Source: Serinibacter salmoneus (GTDB taxonomy: Bacteria; Actinomycetota; Actinomycetes; Actinomycetales; Beutenbergiaceae). Taken from it: DNA of 64,000 bases. The DNA lies in the NCBI RefSeq assembly GCF_002563925.1, contig NZ_PDJD01000001.1, positions 2,238,973-2,302,972 of the forward strand, read 5' to 3'. A program made the translations under genes and the position numbers. Below are positions 8,748 through 18,699 of this stretch, piece by piece. Positions within the stretch are counted from its first letter, which is position 1; every line of letters starts with the position of its first letter. Under the pieces are notes generated by a model. That model did no database searches and was not told the origin of the DNA. It was given only the letters and a program-made list of their open reading frames with translations.

Positions 8748-9419
8748 CTAGGTCCCGAGGTAACGGCCCGGCCGATGGTTCAGCACCAGCACGGTGGACA
8801 GCAGCACAGCGCCCAGGGCCGACAGGAGCACGGTCATCGGGGGGACCACCGTGAGGGCCAGCAGGATCACGGCGACGTCGAGCCCCATCTGCACGTAACC
8901 GGCGCTCCACCCGAATCGCTCCTGCAGGGTCAGGGCGAGCACGTTGAACCCGCCCAGGCTCGCGCGGTGCCGGAACAGGATCAGCAGGCCGATGCCGGCC
9001 AGGAGGTTCCCCATCGCGATCGCATAGACCTCCGGGAGCGCCCCGGGGGCGATCGGGTGGAGATCGGCGGCCACGGAGGCCAGGGCGACGGCGATCGCGG
9101 AACGCAGCGTGAACCGCCACCCCTTGGCGCGCAGCGCGAGCACGAAGAAGGGGACGTTGACGCCGAAGAAGATCACCCCGAACGGGATCGGCGTGGCGTA
9201 GGAGATCAGCAGACCCAGCCCGGCTGTCCCGCCGGTCACGGCGTCGACCGAGCGGAGCATCGCCAGGCCGAGGGAGGCGACGACGGCGCCCACCACCAGC
9301 CCGAAGGTGTCCTCGAACCACGAGTGCGGCACGGGCGTTCCCCCAGGCGGGGTGCCGGGGCCGTAGGGCGCCGTCTCGACGCGCTCGGGATCGGGTTCGA
9401 CATCGGGGGGTGTGGTCAC
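8748..9419 (-). CDS. YitT-family membrane protein
   Basis: This is a 223-residue integral membrane protein with about five helices after a proline-rich cytoplasmic N-terminus of some 35 residues. The hydrophobic blocks and the segment GGTAGLGLLISYATPIPFGVIFFGVN match the YitT (DUF161) family, a predicted transporter-like family without an established substrate. The GTG start at 9419 has no ribosome-binding site. Instead GACAAT sits six bases upstream, which suggests leaderless transcription. The 22-bp repeat array lies about 65 bp upstream. Confidence 0.7.
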   Translation of the reverse strand: MTTPPDVEPDPERVETAPYGPGTPPGGTPVPHSWFEDTFGLVVGAVVASLGLAMLRSVDAVTGGTAGLGLLISYATPIPFGVIFFGVNVPFFVLALRAKGWRFTLRSAIAVALASVAADLHPIAPGALPEVYAIAMGNLLAGIGLLILFRHRASLGGFNVLALTLQERFGWSAGYVQMGLDVAVILLALTVVPPMTVLLSALGAVLLSTVLVLNHRPGRYLGT

Positions 9420-9483
9420 GGGTCCATTGTCCAGGTCTCAGATGACGGACAGGTGACGGCGGGTGCCTCAGCCACACCATAGG

Positions 9484-9593
9484 TCTGCACAACCGCCTCG
9501 CCGTGCCTGCACAACCGCCTCGCCGTGCCTGCACAACCGCCTCGCCGTGCCTGCACAACCGCCTCGCCGTGCCTGCACAACCGCCTCGCCGAG
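9484..9593. repeat. five perfect 22-bp tandem repeats
   Basis: Units start at 9484, 9506, 9528, 9550 and 9572, each with core CTGCACAACCGCCTCGCCG; only the first and last bases of the array deviate. The array lies directly past the terminator of the Bax-inhibitor-like gene and before the YitT-like gene. Read on the minus strand it matches the repeats near rsmA and in the ABC-F gene. There are no spacers, so it is not a CRISPR. Confidence 0.95.
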
Positions 9594-9598
9594 ACGGC

Positions 9599-9634
9599 GA
9601 GGGCCGGCCACCGCGGGTGCGGTGGCCGGCCCTC
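9599..9634 (-). terminator. strong hairpin terminator after the Bax-inhibitor-like gene
   Basis: A perfect 16-bp stem (9599-9614 with 9619-9634) has a four-base loop. It lies 26 bp past the stop codon of the Bax-inhibitor-like gene. There is no T-run, as is common in GC-rich actinobacteria. Confidence 0.8.
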
Positions 9635-9660
9635 GTGCAGACGGCGCGGAACGCTCGTTG

Positions 9661-10563
9661 TCAGTCGCCGCGCAGGATCGCAAGCAGACGCAGGAACTCC
9701 AGGTACATCCACACCAGGGTGACGGCGAGGCCGAAGGCCGCGCCCCAGGCGTAGCGCGCGGGAGCGCCCCGCTGCACGCCCTTCTGGATGGTGTCGAAGT
9801 CGATGACCAAGGTGGCGGCCGCCAGGATCACCGCAGCGACGCCGATGAGGATGCCCCACGGCCCCTCGCGCAGACCCCAGCCGTCCAGCACACCCGTCAC
9901 CATGAGGAGCAGGTTGACCAGGGAGAACACCATGTAGCCGACGAGGGCGACCATGACGATGCGCTGGAACTTCGGGGTGTTGCGCACCTTGCCGCTACGG
10001 AAGAGCAGGAGCACGGCGGCGAACGTGGAGACCGTGGCCAGCACCGCCTGCATCACGATGCCGGAGTACTGCGCCTCGAACACCATGCTGATGGCTCCGA
10101 GGAAGAGTCCCTCGAGTGCCGCGTAGGCAAGGATCAGACCCGGCTTGGGTTCGCGCTTGAAGGCGTTCACCAGGCCCAGCACGAATCCGCCGATCGCACC
10201 GATGATCATCAACGGGAAGGTCAGGCCCGGCATCCCCAGCGCGCTCGGAAGCAGCCAGGACGCCGCGCCGAACAGCACGATCGTGCCGAGAACGAGCGAG
10301 GTCTTGACGATGACGTCGTCATAGGTCATCCGCCCGGTGTCGGCGGGGGCCGCCGACGGCATCCGATAACTCGCTTCGAGCGAGTCCTGCGCCGCGGGGA
10401 CCGCGGCGGGTGGCTGGTAGGTCTGGGTGGCGCCCGGGGTCCCCCAGGGCGAGGGTGTCGAAGTGCCCGGCGCGGAGGGCGAGCCGGCCATGGCTCGGCG
10501 TTCCTGCTGCGCCTTCTGGCTGTCCCCGAAGTAGGGATCGTTGTTGAAGTACGGGTTGCTCAC
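9661..10563 (-). CDS. Bax inhibitor-1/YccA family membrane protein
   Basis: This is a 300-residue protein with a disordered, Pro/Ser/Ala/Gln-rich N-terminal 100 residues followed by about seven membrane helices. The hydrophobic part includes GLVNAFKREPKPGLILAYAAL and a late acidic position in LVIDFDTIQKGVQ, which is typical of the actinobacterial Bax1-I/YccA family. Members of this family leak protons or calcium in some systems; the bacterial role is unclear. GTG 10563 is preceded by AAGGAG. A strong terminator and the 22-bp repeat array follow. Confidence 0.85.
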   Translation of the reverse strand: MSNPYFNNDPYFGDSQKAQQERRAMAGSPSAPGTSTPSPWGTPGATQTYQPPAAVPAAQDSLEASYRMPSAAPADTGRMTYDDVIVKTSLVLGTIVLFGAASWLLPSALGMPGLTFPLMIIGAIGGFVLGLVNAFKREPKPGLILAYAALEGLFLGAISMVFEAQYSGIVMQAVLATVSTFAAVLLLFRSGKVRNTPKFQRIVMVALVGYMVFSLVNLLLMVTGVLDGWGLREGPWGILIGVAAVILAAATLVIDFDTIQKGVQRGAPARYAWGAAFGLAVTLVWMYLEFLRLLAILRGD

Positions 10564-12702: not shown

Positions 12703-13248
12703 ATGACGGGACGTGAGCCGCACATTGCCGTGCGCGAGATCACGGCGCAGGACGGGGACTTCCTCGTGGACATGGTGCTGGAGATCGCCACCGCGAATGG
12801 TGAGAACGTCACGCGCCGGGGCGTCCTGACCGCGCCTCGTCTCGCACGCTACGCCACTGGATGGGGCCGACCTGGGGACCTCGGTCTCGTCGCCGTGGAC
12901 CTCGACGGCCCCCGCGGACTGCAGATCCCCGTGGGTGCCGCGTGGATCCGGCACTACGCCAGCACCGAACCCGGGAAGGGCTTCGTGGATTCCCGGGTGC
13001 CGGAACTCAGCATCTCGATCGTCCCCGGCCGCCGACGCATGGGCATCGGCCGCGCATTGCTCGCGGCGCTGATCGCGAAGGCCCGGGAGAGCGGGGTCCG
13101 CGCGATCAGCATGGCCCTGGCCCCGGACAATCCGGCACGTCCGCTCTACGAGGAGGCCGGATTCACCGAGGACCCGGACGCCCCCTCCGCGAGTGAGGAC
13201 TCGATCACGCTCGTGCTGGAACTGCTCTCCTCCTCCAGGTCGGCGTAA
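12703..13248 (+). CDS. GNAT-family N-acetyltransferase
   Basis: This is a 181-residue protein with the acetyl-CoA-binding motif A: SIVPGRRRMGIGRALLAALIAKA, a variant of the R/Q-x-x-G-x-G/A signature, followed by ALAPDNPARPLYEEAGF. The substrate is unknown. The ATG at 12703 is used; a GTG nine bases upstream is possible. The gene's last 103 bp overlap, tail to tail, the 3' end of the broken exonuclease/polymerase gene on the other strand, so one of the two C-termini may be extended beyond its ancestral length. Confidence 0.75.
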   Translation: MTGREPHIAVREITAQDGDFLVDMVLEIATANGENVTRRGVLTAPRLARYATGWGRPGDLGLVAVDLDGPRGLQIPVGAAWIRHYASTEPGKGFVDSRVPELSISIVPGRRRMGIGRALLAALIAKARESGVRAISMALAPDNPARPLYEEAGFTEDPDAPSASEDSITLVLELLSSSRSA

Positions 13249-14981
13249 CTCTCCGTCACCACAAGGTCCAGCGGGACCAGGTCCCCGTGCCCCGGGAACA
13301 GCAGCCGACTGGCGGACACCGCCGCCTCCGCGAGCACTGCCCGCACCAGGTCGGCCTCCTCCTGCGGGGCGTGCACCACGAGTTCGTCGTGCATGAAGAA
13401 GGCCAGGTGGGCACGCGAGTTCGCCAGGGCGGAGCGCGTGTAGGCCATCCAGGACAGCGCCCACTCGGCTGCGCTGCCCTGCACCACGAAGTTGCGCGTG
13501 AACCGGCCCCAGTCCCGGGCCAGGCGGCGCGCCTCGGCCTGCTGCGCAGTCGTCCCCTCCGCTCCCCACGCCGTGTGCTGGACCCTGGTCCACTCCGCCG
13601 AGGGCGGCGGACTGGAGCGCCCCAGCCACGTGGTGACCACGCCGCCTGCCTCACCGGTGGCGGCCGCGTCGTCGACGAGGGCGAGCGCACGCGGGTAGGC
13701 ACGGGCCAGGCGCGGGACGAGCGCACCGGCCATCCCGGAGCTCTACCCGTACAGCGCCCCGAGCATCGCCACCTTGGCGTGCTCGCGGTCCTCGACCACG
13801 CCGTCCGCCACCAGCGCCTGGTAGAGGTCGCCACGAGCCCCGGCGGCAAGCATCGCCTCGTCCCCGGAGATCGCGGCCAGCACCCGCGGTTCCAGCTGGG
13901 CGGCGTCGGCGACGACGAAGGTCCAGCCTGGATCGGCCACCACGGCCGACCGGATCACCTTGGGCAGGCTCAGCGCCCCACCGCCCCGGGAGGACCACCG
14001 CCCCGTCACCACGCCGGCCGGCACGTAGTCCGCGCGGAACCGGCCGCCACTGACCCAGGAGTCGAGCCACGCCCACCCATTGGCCGAGGCCAGACGCGCG
14101 AGCTTCTTGTACTCCAGCAGGTCCTCCAGCACGGGGTGGTCCAGTCCCCGCAGTTCCCACCGCGCGGTGGAGTTGACATCCAGCCCCATCCGACGCAGCG
14201 CCCGCAGCAGGTGCGGCTGGGAGTCGGGGTTGAGGTGGGGGTCGTTCAATGCGAGGCGGATGCGGGCAGCCAGCTCCTCCAGCCGCGCCGGGCGGGCCCC
14301 GAACCGGCCACGCTCCCCGAGCAGCTCCTGCAGCCGCGCGCGATGCAGGTCCTCACGCAGGGGCAGCCCGTCGTGGTGCAACTCGACTGCGGCGAGCGCC
14401 CCGGCGGACTCCGCCGCGATGAGCAGCTGCAGCGCCCGGGCGCGGTCCGGACTGTATGCGGCGATCTCCCTGAGCGCCTGCTCCTGCGCGAGCCACTGCG
14501 CCTGGGCGTCGCGACCGGCCTCGGGCGCCGAGTGCTCGGGCCGGTCCATCTCGAACAGGCCGGGTTCGGCCGAGTCGTGCCCTCGGGCGCCCCAGCCGCC
14601 GTCCCAGCCCTCCCACGCGGCATCGTGCCGGCGCGGGGCGGCAGCGACCTCCTCGCCGCCCAGGGACGCGCCGGCGACGTCGGGCGGCGCGACCGACTCG
14701 GCCGCGATCCGTGGCGCCGAGAGGCGCAGGATCGCTCGGGACAACCGCAGGTCCAGGCAGCGGGAGACCCGCACGCCCACCTCAACGAGTTCCGGGTACC
14801 AGTGCGCGGTGGAGTCCCAGACCCAGCGTGGGTGCACCCGCTCGCGTTCGCGCACCGCCTCGGGGAGGTCCTCACGAGTGAGAGTGTGGGTCTCGCCGTC
14901 GCCCATCAGTTCGACCAGGGACGCGTCCGAGCGCGAGCGGCGCACCAGGACGCTCGGGGTCACGGGCGTCTCCACCCGCAC
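13146..14981 (-). pseudogene. bifunctional 3'-5' exonuclease/DNA polymerase, split by an in-frame amber codon
   Basis: The frame is open from GTG 14981 to the stop at 13146 except for one TAG at 13743-13745. The first part (412 codons) contains a divergent exonuclease-like region and polymerase motif A (VVADAAQLEPRVLAAISGD). The stop falls inside the O-helix motif right after AKVAMLGALYG. The 195 residues from the next ATG, three codons later, retain motif C (HDELVVHAP). This is the short actinobacterial family-A-like exonuclease/polymerase of about 600 residues. In homologues I recall, the residue after YG is often Gln, so a CAG-to-TAG change would explain it. Codon use stays normal after the stop, suggesting a recent mutation, an error in the sequence, or read-through. 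The C-terminus overlaps the acetyltransferase gene by 103 bp. Confidence 0.85.
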
Positions 14982-15269
14982 ACTCTGGCACAGGGGTACG
15001 ACACCGGCGGGCGGCGTCGGTGGCAAGCGATGACGGTGGCGTCAGTGACGACGGTGCCGTCCGTGGCGGTCACCGAGCACGCACACCACGCCGCTATTGC
15101 GGCGGTGCACTTCGCTGGGTGGTTCTCAAACCCGCGCAAGCCCCTCATGACGCTGATTCGCCGGGTTCTGCGGGATCGCGGCGTCCTGTGTCGCGTCCTG
15201 AATGTCACCCTATTGAGGAGGTGCGCGGCCCGGTCGCGGAGAGTTCGCTCCGTTCTCAAACCCGATTGA

Positions 15270-15683: not shown

Positions 15684-16091
15684 TCACTGGCCCCAGCAGG
15701 CGTCACCTTGGACGGCGGCAATCTGGATGAGATTTCCGCAGGTGTCATCGAACACCGCAGTCATCGCGGGGCCCATCTCGGTCGGCCCCTGGGTGAACGT
15801 CACGTCGAGGTCACGCAGCCGGTCGTACTCGGCCTGCACGTCATCGACGAGAAACTGGGCCGCCGGTATCCCGTCGGCCATCAGCGCCGCCCGGTAGGGC
15901 AGTACTGCAGGATGAGCTGCGGGCTCAAGTAGAAGCTCGACACCATCTGGGTCGTCGGGCGCGACGACGGTGAGCCATCGATGCTCACCGACAGGCTCGT
16001 CGACCTTGGTCACGAAGCCGAGTGTTTCGGTGTAGAAGGCCAGCGCGGCGGCCTGGTCGTCGACGAAGACGCTGGTGATCGCGATCCTCAT
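15684..16091 (-). CDS. VOC-family (glyoxalase-like) protein
   Basis: This is a 135-residue single-domain protein of the vicinal oxygen chelate fold, with two beta-alpha-beta-beta-beta halves (MRIAITSVFVDDQAAALAFY and VFDDTCGNLIQI). The metal-ligand positions are only partly conserved, so catalysis is not certain. It begins four bases after the stop of the ArsR-SRPBCC gene and is surely in the same operon. ArsR, SRPBCC and VOC genes commonly occur together in actinobacteria; the shared substrate is unknown. Confidence 0.85.
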   Translation of the reverse strand: MRIAITSVFVDDQAAALAFYTETLGFVTKVDEPVGEHRWLTVVAPDDPDGVELLLEPAAHPAVLPYRAALMADGIPAAQFLVDDVQAEYDRLRDLDVTFTQGPTEMGPAMTAVFDDTCGNLIQIAAVQGDACWGQ

Positions 16092-16095
16092 TTCG

Positions 16096-16905
16096 TCAGG
16101 CTCCACTGACAGGAAGGTTCCGTGCCGCCCACCGGCGCCCCGGCTCCGGGTCGACGCCAAGGCGCTCGGCGTAGAGTTCGTGGATCTCCGCCCAGGGCCC
16201 GTGCGCCTCCTCCTCAGAGAGGTGTCCGCCTGCGAGATGGGGTCCGAGCCGGGAAAGGTAGATTTCCCATCCGGTCGCGGTCTGGGCGGCGGGGAGGTCG
16301 TCGATGGTGGTCGTGAAGACCAATCGGCACTCATCCCCCTCCTGCGTCAGCTCGAAGCCCTGCGGCTGACCGGCAAAGATCCAGGTCAACAGAGTCGGTG
16401 CCTCGACCTGCGTCACCTCCACGGACATGCCGCCAGCGTCGATGATCTCGCCTGCGACGGGTGTCCAGTCTGCGGCACCCGGAAAGAAGCGTTCCAACTC
16501 GGACGGCGTGCTCACCGCCTGCCACACGCGCTCAATCGGATAGCCGAGCGAGCGCTCGAAACGCAGCGCCCACCGACCGTCGATGGTCTCCAAAGTTCCA
16601 TACGCCTTGGGTTCATTCATGGTTGTTCCTGCTTTCTCTGGATACGGCCAACGGTCGATGATCGCGCGCAGCGGGGCAGTGTCGATGGAGTGGAACTTGT
16701 ACCGTCCGTCCTTGACCGCGATCACCAGTCCGGCCGCCTGCAACACCTCAAGGTGCTGCGATACGGCCTGGCGGGAGGAGGTGAGTCCGTGCCTCGTAGC
16801 CAATCGGCCGCACAGTTCGAACAGGGTCTGCCGATCCCGCTCAAGGAGTTCGTCGAGGATGGTCCGCCGAGTCCCATCGGCCAGCGCTTTGTACACGTCG
16901 CTCAC
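16096..16905 (-). CDS. ArsR-family repressor fused to an SRPBCC (AHSA1-like) domain
   Basis: This is a 269-residue protein with two parts. Residues 1-90 are an ArsR/SmtB winged helix (DGTRRTILDELL, then SRQAVSQHLEVLQAAGLV). From about residue 96 an SRPBCC/AHSA1 lipid- or ligand-binding domain begins (TLETIDGRWALRFERSL, then PIERVWQAVSTPSELERFFP). These are usually two adjacent genes; here they are one frame, with the ArsR C-terminus shortened. An ATG at 16620 preceded by AGGA could still start a free SRPBCC domain. No ArsR metal-binding cysteine set is seen, so a ligand other than metal is likely. A perfect inverted repeat just upstream of the start suggests autoregulation. Confidence 0.85.
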   Translation of the reverse strand: MSDVYKALADGTRRTILDELLERDRQTLFELCGRLATRHGLTSSRQAVSQHLEVLQAAGLVIAVKDGRYKFHSIDTAPLRAIIDRWPYPEKAGTTMNEPKAYGTLETIDGRWALRFERSLGYPIERVWQAVSTPSELERFFPGAADWTPVAGEIIDAGGMSVEVTQVEAPTLLTWIFAGQPQGFELTQEGDECRLVFTTTIDDLPAAQTATGWEIYLSRLGPHLAGGHLSEEEAHGPWAEIHELYAERLGVDPEPGRRWAARNLPVSGA

Positions 16906-16916
16906 ACCTCGACATT

Positions 16917-16936
16917 AGGCAAGCGAACACTTGCCT
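16917..16936. promoter_or_regulatory. ArsR-type operator
   Basis: AGGCAAG and CTTGCCT form a perfect 7-bp inverted repeat with a six-base spacer, centred about 20 bases before the ArsR-SRPBCC start. This size and spacing suit a dimeric winged-helix repressor. The remainder of 16937-17147 shows no gene. Confidence 0.7.
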
Positions 16937-17178
16937 GTCAATCGCCGCGTAGGCGGGCACAAGGGCCAGGCGCCGCGGCGTGGACGGGCTCGGATGGCGA
17001 GAGTCCGCGCGGATGCACGAAGAATGCAGGCCGCCCCGCACTCCAAGACCAGCATGCAGTTCGAGGCACCCCTACGACGGCCCGCTCACCCGGTGCCGAG
17101 AGACCTCCACGGCCCCCTTCACCATGTGCATCGCCGACTACTGCAACTGAATCGCCCTGGGTCTGGTGGAGGGTCGCG

Positions 17179-18027
17179 CTATTGGATTCCGGCGACCTGG
17201 TGGCCCTCGGTCTGGTCAGCATAGAAGGCCTGCTCGAACTCCGCTGGTGGGACATCGTCGAGGTAGCCGTGCAGGCGCTGGTGGTTGTGCCAGTGGACCC
17301 ACCCCAGGGTGGCGAGCTCGACGTCTTCGATCGTCTTCCAGGGCCGCTGCCTGGCGGGTCCGCGGATGAGCTCGGCCTTGTAGTACCCGTTCACGGTCTC
17401 AGCCAGCGCGTTGTCGTAGGAATCGCCCACGGTCCCGATCGAGGGGGCTGCCCCGATCTCCGCGAGCCGTTCGCCGTAGCGCAGACTCGTGAATTGACTA
17501 CCGGCGTCGCTGTGACATCTCAGCCCCGCCAGGTCCGCGCCCCGGGACCAACGAGCCATCTCGATTGCGTCCAGCACGGTCTCGGTCCTCATCGTGGCCG
17601 CTGCGCGCCAGCCCACGATCATCCGCGAGTAGGCGTCGATGATGAAGCACACGTAGGTCACCCCCGCCCACGTCGGGACGTAGGTCAGGTCGGTCACCCA
17701 CAGCTGGTTCGGGGCCGTCGCGGTGAAGTCCCGGCCGACCAGGTCCGGGTGGCGGGCAGCGAGCGGATCAGGCCGAGTCGTGCGCACCCGTTTGGTCCGG
17801 CTCACGCCTTTGATCCCCGCGCTGCGCATGAGGCGAGCGACCTGGTCGCGTCCCACCTCCAGCCCTGCCCGTCCGGCTGCCTTCCAGAGCTTGCGGGCTC
17901 CGTAGACGCGGTAGTTCGCCTCCCACAACGCCACCAGCTGCGGCCCGAGGACCGCGTCGCGGATCTGGCGGGCCGACGGTGGCCGGCTCCGGCGGGCGTA
18001 GTAGGTGCTGGGGGCCACCTGCAGCAC
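17179..18027 (-). CDS. IS3-family transposase OrfB (integrase catalytic core)
   Basis: This 282-residue segment has the DDE integrase triad: Asp in WVTDLTYV, Asp in HSDAGSQF and Glu in NALAETVNGYYKAEL. The N-terminal part contains the HTH_21-like segment before GARKLWKAAGRAG. The frame is open upstream of this ATG and overlaps the end of orfA in the -1 frame, so the natural product is probably an OrfAB fusion made by programmed -1 frameshifting. No stop or frameshift disrupts it, so the element may still be active if both ends work. Confidence 0.9.
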   Translation of the reverse strand: MLQVAPSTYYARRSRPPSARQIRDAVLGPQLVALWEANYRVYGARKLWKAAGRAGLEVGRDQVARLMRSAGIKGVSRTKRVRTTRPDPLAARHPDLVGRDFTATAPNQLWVTDLTYVPTWAGVTYVCFIIDAYSRMIVGWRAAATMRTETVLDAIEMARWSRGADLAGLRCHSDAGSQFTSLRYGERLAEIGAAPSIGTVGDSYDNALAETVNGYYKAELIRGPARQRPWKTIEDVELATLGWVHWHNHQRLHGYLDDVPPAEFEQAFYADQTEGHQVAGIQ

Positions 18028-18098
18028 GCGGCAGATGCGCTCGACCCCCAGCCGACGGCCCTCAACGACGACCTCGCGGTTGGCGTCGATGAATGCGG

Positions 18099-18440
18099 CT
18101 ACTTGGTCTGGCGGTCCAGCTCCGCCCCGAAGAAATGCGCTGCCCGCCGCAGGATCTCATTCGCCCGCCGCAGCTCACGGACCTCCTGCTCCAGGGCCTT
18201 CACCCGGGCCGCCTCATCGGTGCTCACGCCCGCAGTGACACCCTCGTCGATGTCGGCCTGCTTGACCCACACTCGGACCGACTCGACCCCGTAGCCCAAC
18301 TGCGTAGCGACCCGCTGGACCGTGCCCTGCTCAGTCCCAAGCTCCGCCCGCAGCGACCGCACCATCCCGACCGCGACCGCCTTCTCCTGATCGCAGTACC
18401 GCCTCGTGGTCGGCTTCCCCGCACTCTGCTCCATCGGCAT
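18099..18440 (-). CDS. IS3-family transposase OrfA
   Basis: This 113-residue protein has a helix-turn-helix (TVQRVATQLGYGVESVRVWV) and a C-terminal leucine-zipper-like coiled coil (KALEQEVRELRRANEILRRA), the standard OrfA layout for DNA binding at the IS ends and for multimerisation. ATG 18440 has GAGG eight bases upstream; an in-frame TTG further upstream lies in the terminal repeat. OrfA ends at TAG 18099, just past the region where the orfB frame opens. Confidence 0.88.
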   Translation of the reverse strand: MPMEQSAGKPTTRRYCDQEKAVAVGMVRSLRAELGTEQGTVQRVATQLGYGVESVRVWVKQADIDEGVTAGVSTDEAARVKALEQEVRELRRANEILRRAAHFFGAELDRQTK

Positions 18441-18492
18441 GTGACCATCCTCGTTTCCAAGCTCAGGCGACTCCACCAAACCCAGGGCGATT

Positions 18493-18609: not shown

Positions 18610-18625
18610 ACAACGACGCTCTGGG

Positions 18626-18699
18626 TGCCCCCGATGGGACTCGAACCCATACTGTGCCGGGTTTAAGCCGGCTGCCTCTGCCGATTGGGCTACGGGGGC
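18626..18699 (-). tRNA. tRNA-Leu (anticodon UAA), short variable arm
   Basis: This is a 74-base tRNA with a seven-pair acceptor stem (GCCCCCG with CGGGGGC), a 3-4 pair D stem, a perfect five-pair anticodon stem (GCCGG/CCGGC) and loop CTTAAAC. The T arm has stem ATGGG/CCCAT and loop TTCGAGT, and the discriminator is A. CCA is not encoded. The anticodon TAA reads UUA, so Leu is expected, but the variable region has only five bases (ACAGT), unlike class II leucine tRNAs. Confidence 0.85.

Follow-up and report, generated by a model that had tools for sequence, protein, structure and literature searches.

Two-gene modules that pair an ArsR-type regulator with a COG3832 (Aha1/SRPBCC) protein were described by Makarova, Wolf and Koonin in 2009, in an account that takes antibiotic resistance as the most plausible function and names toxin-antitoxin activity as one option (PMC2701414). 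The Rv2034 regulator of Mycobacterium tuberculosis, as reported in PMC3338718, was footprinted on CCGTAAGT-N4-ACTTACGG in its own promoter, with the SRPBCC-type gene Rv2035 next to it. In the tiancimycin cluster, the CalU16-like TnmB and the sequestering TnmS proteins are described as acting in resistance (PMC11069151). Although numerous, ArsR-SRPBCC pairs have hardly been studied, and a literature search, with subscription papers mostly outside its reach, found no experimental study of an ArsR-SRPBCC/AHSA1 fusion.

We analysed a 64-kb stretch of Serinibacter salmoneus DNA (the window), which contains the following features:

16096..16905 (-), ArsR-SRPBCC fusion gene, 269 aa, GTG start at 16905 and TGA stop at 16096; conserved in frame in loci L014 and L015
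16621..16905 (-), ArsR (HTH_20) part, residues 1-95; complete winged-helix fold in residues 1-86, invariant Cys32
16096..16620 (-), AHSA1/SRPBCC part, residues 96-269, starting at an internal ATG at 16620; the same frame stands alone in relatives
16621..16645 (-), AGCAGGA-bearing stretch ahead of the internal ATG, a possible ribosome-binding site that is also linker coding sequence
15684..16091 (-), VOC (glyoxalase/bleomycin-resistance superfamily) gene, 135 aa, ATG at 16091, 4 nt past the fusion stop
16912..16941 (-), promoter-like TTGACA (16941-16936), 18-bp spacer and TAATGT (16917-16912), read from the sequence
16917..16936 (no strand), 20-bp perfect palindrome AGGCAAG-N6-CTTGCCT, putative ArsR operator

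The two domains that an earlier note had placed in one frame are indeed joined there. HTH_20 (PF12840) covers residues 8-61 at 27.6 bits against a cut-off of 27, and the best NCBIfam ArsR model reaches 48.7 bits, below its cut-off of 55; the ArsR part thus belongs to the ArsR/SmtB family by the Pfam profile, with a score barely over that cut-off and under the NCBIfam one. Structure comparison matches it to the ArsR chains 3f6o and 2oqg (Z 12.7). AHSA1 (PF08327) covers residues 122-221 (31.7 bits, cut-off 22.1), and membership of AHSA1/SRPBCC is evident from both profile and fold. With its ArsR directly linked to a COG3832-type protein, the locus is an ArsR-COG3832 module in the form of a fusion. 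In the AlphaFold model (mean pLDDT 88.3, pTM 0.61), two confidently predicted domains are joined by a linker whose pLDDT is below 50 (residues 87-99). All helices of the ArsR fold are present in the model, the last being helix 77-85. The shortened ArsR C-terminus claimed previously proved to be wrong: the ArsR part up to the internal Met has 95 residues, compared with 90-117 aa in standalone relatives (n = 31), which stop a few residues past the same RW motif. Because Cys32 is the sole cysteine of the ArsR part and all 34 aligned sequences have it, thiol chemistry at this residue is a candidate means of sensing the inducer. In ArsR/SmtB metalloregulators, metal-site cysteines are found in the third helix.

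The solved structure nearest to the SRPBCC part is CalU16 (Foldseek 1.2e-8; first in phmmer at 5.7e-9; 21% identity; VIA Z 16.9 and rmsd 2.6 over 149 aligned residues), which is poorly separated from 2nn5, a structure of unknown function (Z 16.3). The VOC gene's place in the operon, as the earlier note had it, is supported. Its product scores 72.6 bits with PF00903 (cut-off 20.6), placing it in the VOC superfamily, and matches 4g6x at 1.4e-50. Read by eye across 30 orthologs, its last motif is of CGNLIQ type, with Q in 29 of them. Many VOC enzymes have E at this position, and those that are metal-dependent have metal-ligand His/Glu positions. The Cys of the CGNL motif is likewise shared by 29 of the 30 VOC orthologs aligned and, alongside the invariant Cys32 of ArsR, could reflect a shared thiol theme. 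The TnmS proteins are themselves VOC members. A toxic small molecule is most likely what the window's SRPBCC and VOC proteins bind or inactivate, the whole probably being an autorepressed module that detoxifies a drug or electrophile. PADLOC gave no more than weak Csa3-type HTH matches.

IS3-type transposase genes (rve + HTH_Tnp_1, window 17179-18479) lie immediately upstream of the operon, with a tRNA-Leu at 18624-18699 beside them. At 13146-15026 (-), frames of 427 and 195 aa resemble, by eye, one DNA polymerase A type protein frameshifted near 13740.

A pattern scan of genome contigs yielded 15 related loci, 11 of them with SRPBCC. The search for the same domain fusion that the earlier note had called for found it intact in Nesterenkonia muleiensis (L014) and N. 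ebinurensis (L015) at ~82% identity, each with VOC behind. The intact fusions known are thus three, two of them from near-identical sister species, and the frame common to both Nesterenkonia genomes rules out a sequencing error or annotation artefact as its source. The linker measures 72 nt in all three, with no indel, and the frame is kept throughout at a window-Nesterenkonia dS of ~0.46-0.88. Comparing the window with L014, dN/dS is 0.12 for ArsR residues 2-80, 0.51 for residues 81-120 and 0.13 for SRPBCC residues 121-265; both fusion domains are under purifying selection. Loss of a stop without conservation, which had been named as one refuting case, therefore does not describe this locus, though the frame was lost in a copy from Pseudomonas dryadis (L016). 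This copy, homologous to window 16086-17060 at 90.4%, has a linker of 58 nt (14 shorter than 72), with ArsR and SRPBCC in different frames and SRPBCC open; no VOC match was found in the 5.8-kb locus. Contamination of the assembly could be ruled out, as the flanks read as Pseudomonas (a two-component pair, a dicarboxylate transporter and a TtcA-like protein, named from translations alone). Within a segment of the P. dryadis chromosome (L111), the actinobacterial arsR-srpbcc copy lies at ~9398-10364, a between-phyla transfer with ArsR broken and SRPBCC open.

SRPBCC stands alone or beside a broken ArsR in at least 6 genomes. In Qaidamihabitans (L018) the ArsR is broken, its frame ending in an ATGA overlap with srpbcc and the linker measuring 71 nt; both parts are broken in Streptomyces oceani (L024), and SRPBCC is split over two frames in Sciscionella marina (L023). 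No ArsR match at E 1e-3 was found upstream of SRPBCC in L017, L019 (identical in sequence to L036), L020, L021, L022 or L023, with a short ArsR remnant persisting in L017. In the SRPBCC tree (36 rows), the window groups with P. dryadis and Nesterenkonia in a single clade (97/95) nested within standalone SRPBCCs; the ArsR tree (42 rows), whose interior is weakly resolved, unites the three fusions in a clade (100/100). These clades suggest that the fusion probably arose once here and that P. dryadis later lost it by deletion.

After diverging from the P. dryadis copy, the window SRPBCC changed at S97, P112, H171, S183, H199, E221, F249 and Q262, and the sites of S183 and H199 are unchanged in the 13 other aligned sequences. 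Multi-base codon changes at family-fixed residues (H199, H171 and P112) are seen on the window branch within 16096-16620. Counting multi-base changes in one codon per base, nucleotide changes on this branch are 10 silent and 12 amino-acid-changing in SRPBCC against 4 and 1 in ArsR, too few to prove a difference. The divergence may reflect relaxed constraint or a new specificity, and the changes at S183 and H199 could mean that the old SRPBCC function is lost.

SRPBCC orthologs of the window kind are rare: strong matches (63-75% identity) were found in 0 of 396 order, 4 of 394 class and 1 of 296 phylum genomes, the samples overlapping, the window's own being excluded and the phylum sample having been queried with the entire fusion at E 1e-30. 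A plasmid search gave only distant relatives and standalone ArsRs among the matches listed (30 of 70). Distant SRPBCC relatives in frames of 256-318 aa (L030, L032-L034, L040-L047) include several with a second SRPBCC match, pointing to tandem SRPBCC genes or proteins. A different fused ArsR-SRPBCC family matches at E 1e-40 in 34 of 148 class genomes, with 32 near full length and 31 free of a stop; three of its proteins carry HTH_20 and AHSA1 by Pfam. Full-length fused proteins of another lineage in 31 of 148 sampled class genomes argue against the view that ArsR and SRPBCC are normally separate. Membership of the window fusion in this widespread family is ruled out by its separate position in both trees. 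ArsR-SRPBCC fusions are not rare, and the lineage of fusion found in the window is known from few relatives.

The palindrome ahead of the fusion has a single match in the 64-kb window with up to 2 mismatches allowed, against 0.03 expected from shuffles. It occupies the spacer between TTGACA and TAATGT, a promoter layout also seen around the palindrome in relatives. A consensus promoter scan gave no score to TTGACA-N18-TAATGT, because TAATGT is a poor match to consensus. With the GTG start only 6 nt past TAATGT, the fusion mRNA is probably leaderless. In most related arsR-voc loci, the operator core starts ~29-33 nt ahead of the chosen start. Autoregulation had been proposed on the strength of the palindrome: the perfect repeat is present as described, and together with Rv2034, reported to be footprinted on a similar palindrome, it suggests ArsR autorepression, the support for this proposal being comparative only.

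The same ArsR subtype is found, at E 1e-20, in 13 of the 24 genomes of the window's family set, the window's own included. Among 31 distinct standalone loci (L002-L013, L025, L026, L073, L075, L076, L078, L079, L083 and L100-L110, leaving out the VOC-less, interrupted ArsR fragment L085 and the duplicates L074, L077, L080-L082 and L084), a VOC gene follows ArsR in every case, and none of the fetched stretches contains an SRPBCC match. An exact GCAAG-N6-CTTGC lies ahead of 29 of these, with one mismatch at L008 and no site at L083. It also precedes, with at most 1 mismatch, 11 of the 12 distinct srpbcc loci, including those where arsR is gone; the exception is the decayed L024. A search of 13 of the genomes for perfect GCAAGTN4ACTTGC returned 11 sites, spread over 7 genomes and every one of them ahead of an arsR or srpbcc gene of the system, compared with 1 site for the reversed-pattern control. 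Four genomes (G753, G754, G756 and G759) have exactly two perfect operators each, one before arsR-voc and one before srpbcc. Other one-mismatch operator matches are about as frequent as in the control and so do not point to further regulon members.

Several genomes have srpbcc at a different locus that carries this operator, and there its own ArsR has gone or is degenerating. In G753, G754, G755, G756, G758 and G759, arsR-voc occurs separately (60-73% identity) and srpbcc has no intact ArsR next to it, and in the genomes of the window and both Nesterenkonia no other ArsR match is that close. The pattern is not strict, as G752, G757 and G760 lack both an intact cis ArsR and a close separate copy; a cis ArsR is absent from the 6 genomes with a separate arsR-voc and from 3 of 6 without, a difference that is not significant by a rough hand estimate. 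On this comparative evidence, the remote srpbcc is probably repressed in trans by the ArsR of arsR-voc. The operator is specific enough for predicting which genes belong together.

The internal ATG at 16620 and its AGGA site are present as the earlier note reported. The SD-like AGCAGGA is kept in the window, L014, L015 and L016, and 11 related SRPBCC loci have an ATG at the equivalent place with an AGGA- or GGGA-like site ahead, which makes this start plausible. In 8 of the 11, no ArsR frame runs into SRPBCC, whose translation must therefore begin at or near that ATG.

We give a probability of about 0.6 to the reading that this is an autorepressed operon in which ArsR and srpbcc became fused in an ancestor, the inducer acts via the ArsR part and free SRPBCC is made besides the fusion. 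The ArsR part would bind the palindrome in its own, probably leaderless, promoter and shut off the fusion and the VOC gene. Elsewhere in actinobacteria the same subtype heads arsR-voc operons, and some of these genomes carry srpbcc at a distance, preceded by that operator as well. The two genes were joined into one frame in the common ancestor of the window, Nesterenkonia and P. dryadis copies, and voc follows in the window and Nesterenkonia. An inducer would lift repression through the ArsR part itself, possibly at Cys32, and the retained SD-like site and ATG would probably yield free SRPBCC alongside the fusion.

The earlier proposal that a ligand bound to SRPBCC directly controls DNA binding, making the fusion a one-component sensor, appears unlikely. 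The frame has been retained with both parts under purifying selection, SRPBCC folds possess a ligand pocket, an unrelated ArsR-SRPBCC fusion is widespread, and the window SRPBCC differs at sites fixed elsewhere, a divergence that conversion of an effector into a sensor might produce. However, all 31 standalone ArsRs are full length and without an adjacent SRPBCC, and since they share the operator, SRPBCC would be unneeded for whatever ArsR senses; the fused SRPBCC is for this reason more likely an effector. The retained free start also speaks against a sensor, and the disordered linker of the model does not suggest rigid allosteric coupling. A related reading, in which a split regulon has been condensed into one gene whose effector may be becoming the sensor half of a one-component regulator while the internal start still supplies free effector, seems quite improbable to us; it would fit with probable trans repression of the remote srpbcc in relatives, with fusion where no separate ArsR exists and with the changes of the window SRPBCC at positions that its standalone kin keep fixed.

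It is also possible, if rather doubtful, that one indel simply joined two overlapping genes by neutral stop-loss, leaving both activities unchanged and the fusion without a role. The fusion is confined to a small clade, P. dryadis lost it with srpbcc staying open, and the L018 overlap, at 71 versus 72 nt, implies that a single nucleotide separates fused and unfused states; yet L018 is weak evidence on the ancestral state because it is a decayed copy, and the frame has persisted over the dS separating window and Nesterenkonia without a linker indel. A toxin-antitoxin-like pair, with SRPBCC as toxin and ArsR as antitoxin, is very unlikely. Mobility would suit it, given a copy within real Pseudomonas flanks and the transposase genes beside the window copy, but SRPBCC persisting alone or with a broken ArsR is unlike a toxin without its antitoxin, and Makarova et al. 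2009 deem antibiotic resistance more plausible in their account (PMC2701414). The fused, adjacent, decaying and remote arrangements, all under one operator, offer a natural series in which to ask what is sensed by the repressor and whether SRPBCC acts as sensor or effector.

Compared with known systems, the widespread actinobacterial fusions (263-283 aa; L086, L091, L094) share domain order and size with the window fusion, but are ~50% identical in ArsR and ~22-26% in SRPBCC over longer alignments and form a separate clade in both trees. CalU16/TnmB-type SRPBCC and TnmS-type VOC proteins are described as a pair serving in enediyne resistance (PMC11069151), and the window likewise combines SRPBCC with VOC. 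Enediyne self-sacrifice proteins such as CalC and CalU16 are cleaved by the drug while protecting against it. For CalU16, at 21% identity, the likeness to the window SRPBCC is one of fold and weak sequence similarity alone. Rv2034-Rv2035-Rv2036, as reported, likewise combines an autorepressing ArsR, an overlapping SRPBCC-type gene and a palindrome with a 4-nt spacer, whereas its genes are separate, its arm is CCGTAAGT rather than (A)GGCAAG(T) and its third gene is not VOC (PMC3338718). The ArsR-COG3832 modules, in the published description, are mobile, contain an ArsR that lacks the usual metal motif and, like the window, link ArsR directly to an SRPBCC partner, with a resistance role proposed through CalC (PMC2701414). 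Unlike them, the window has one frame followed by VOC, and in its relatives ArsR and SRPBCC occupy separate loci that carry one and the same operator; the new part is this regulon, in which a shared operator links arsR-voc operons and remote srpbcc.
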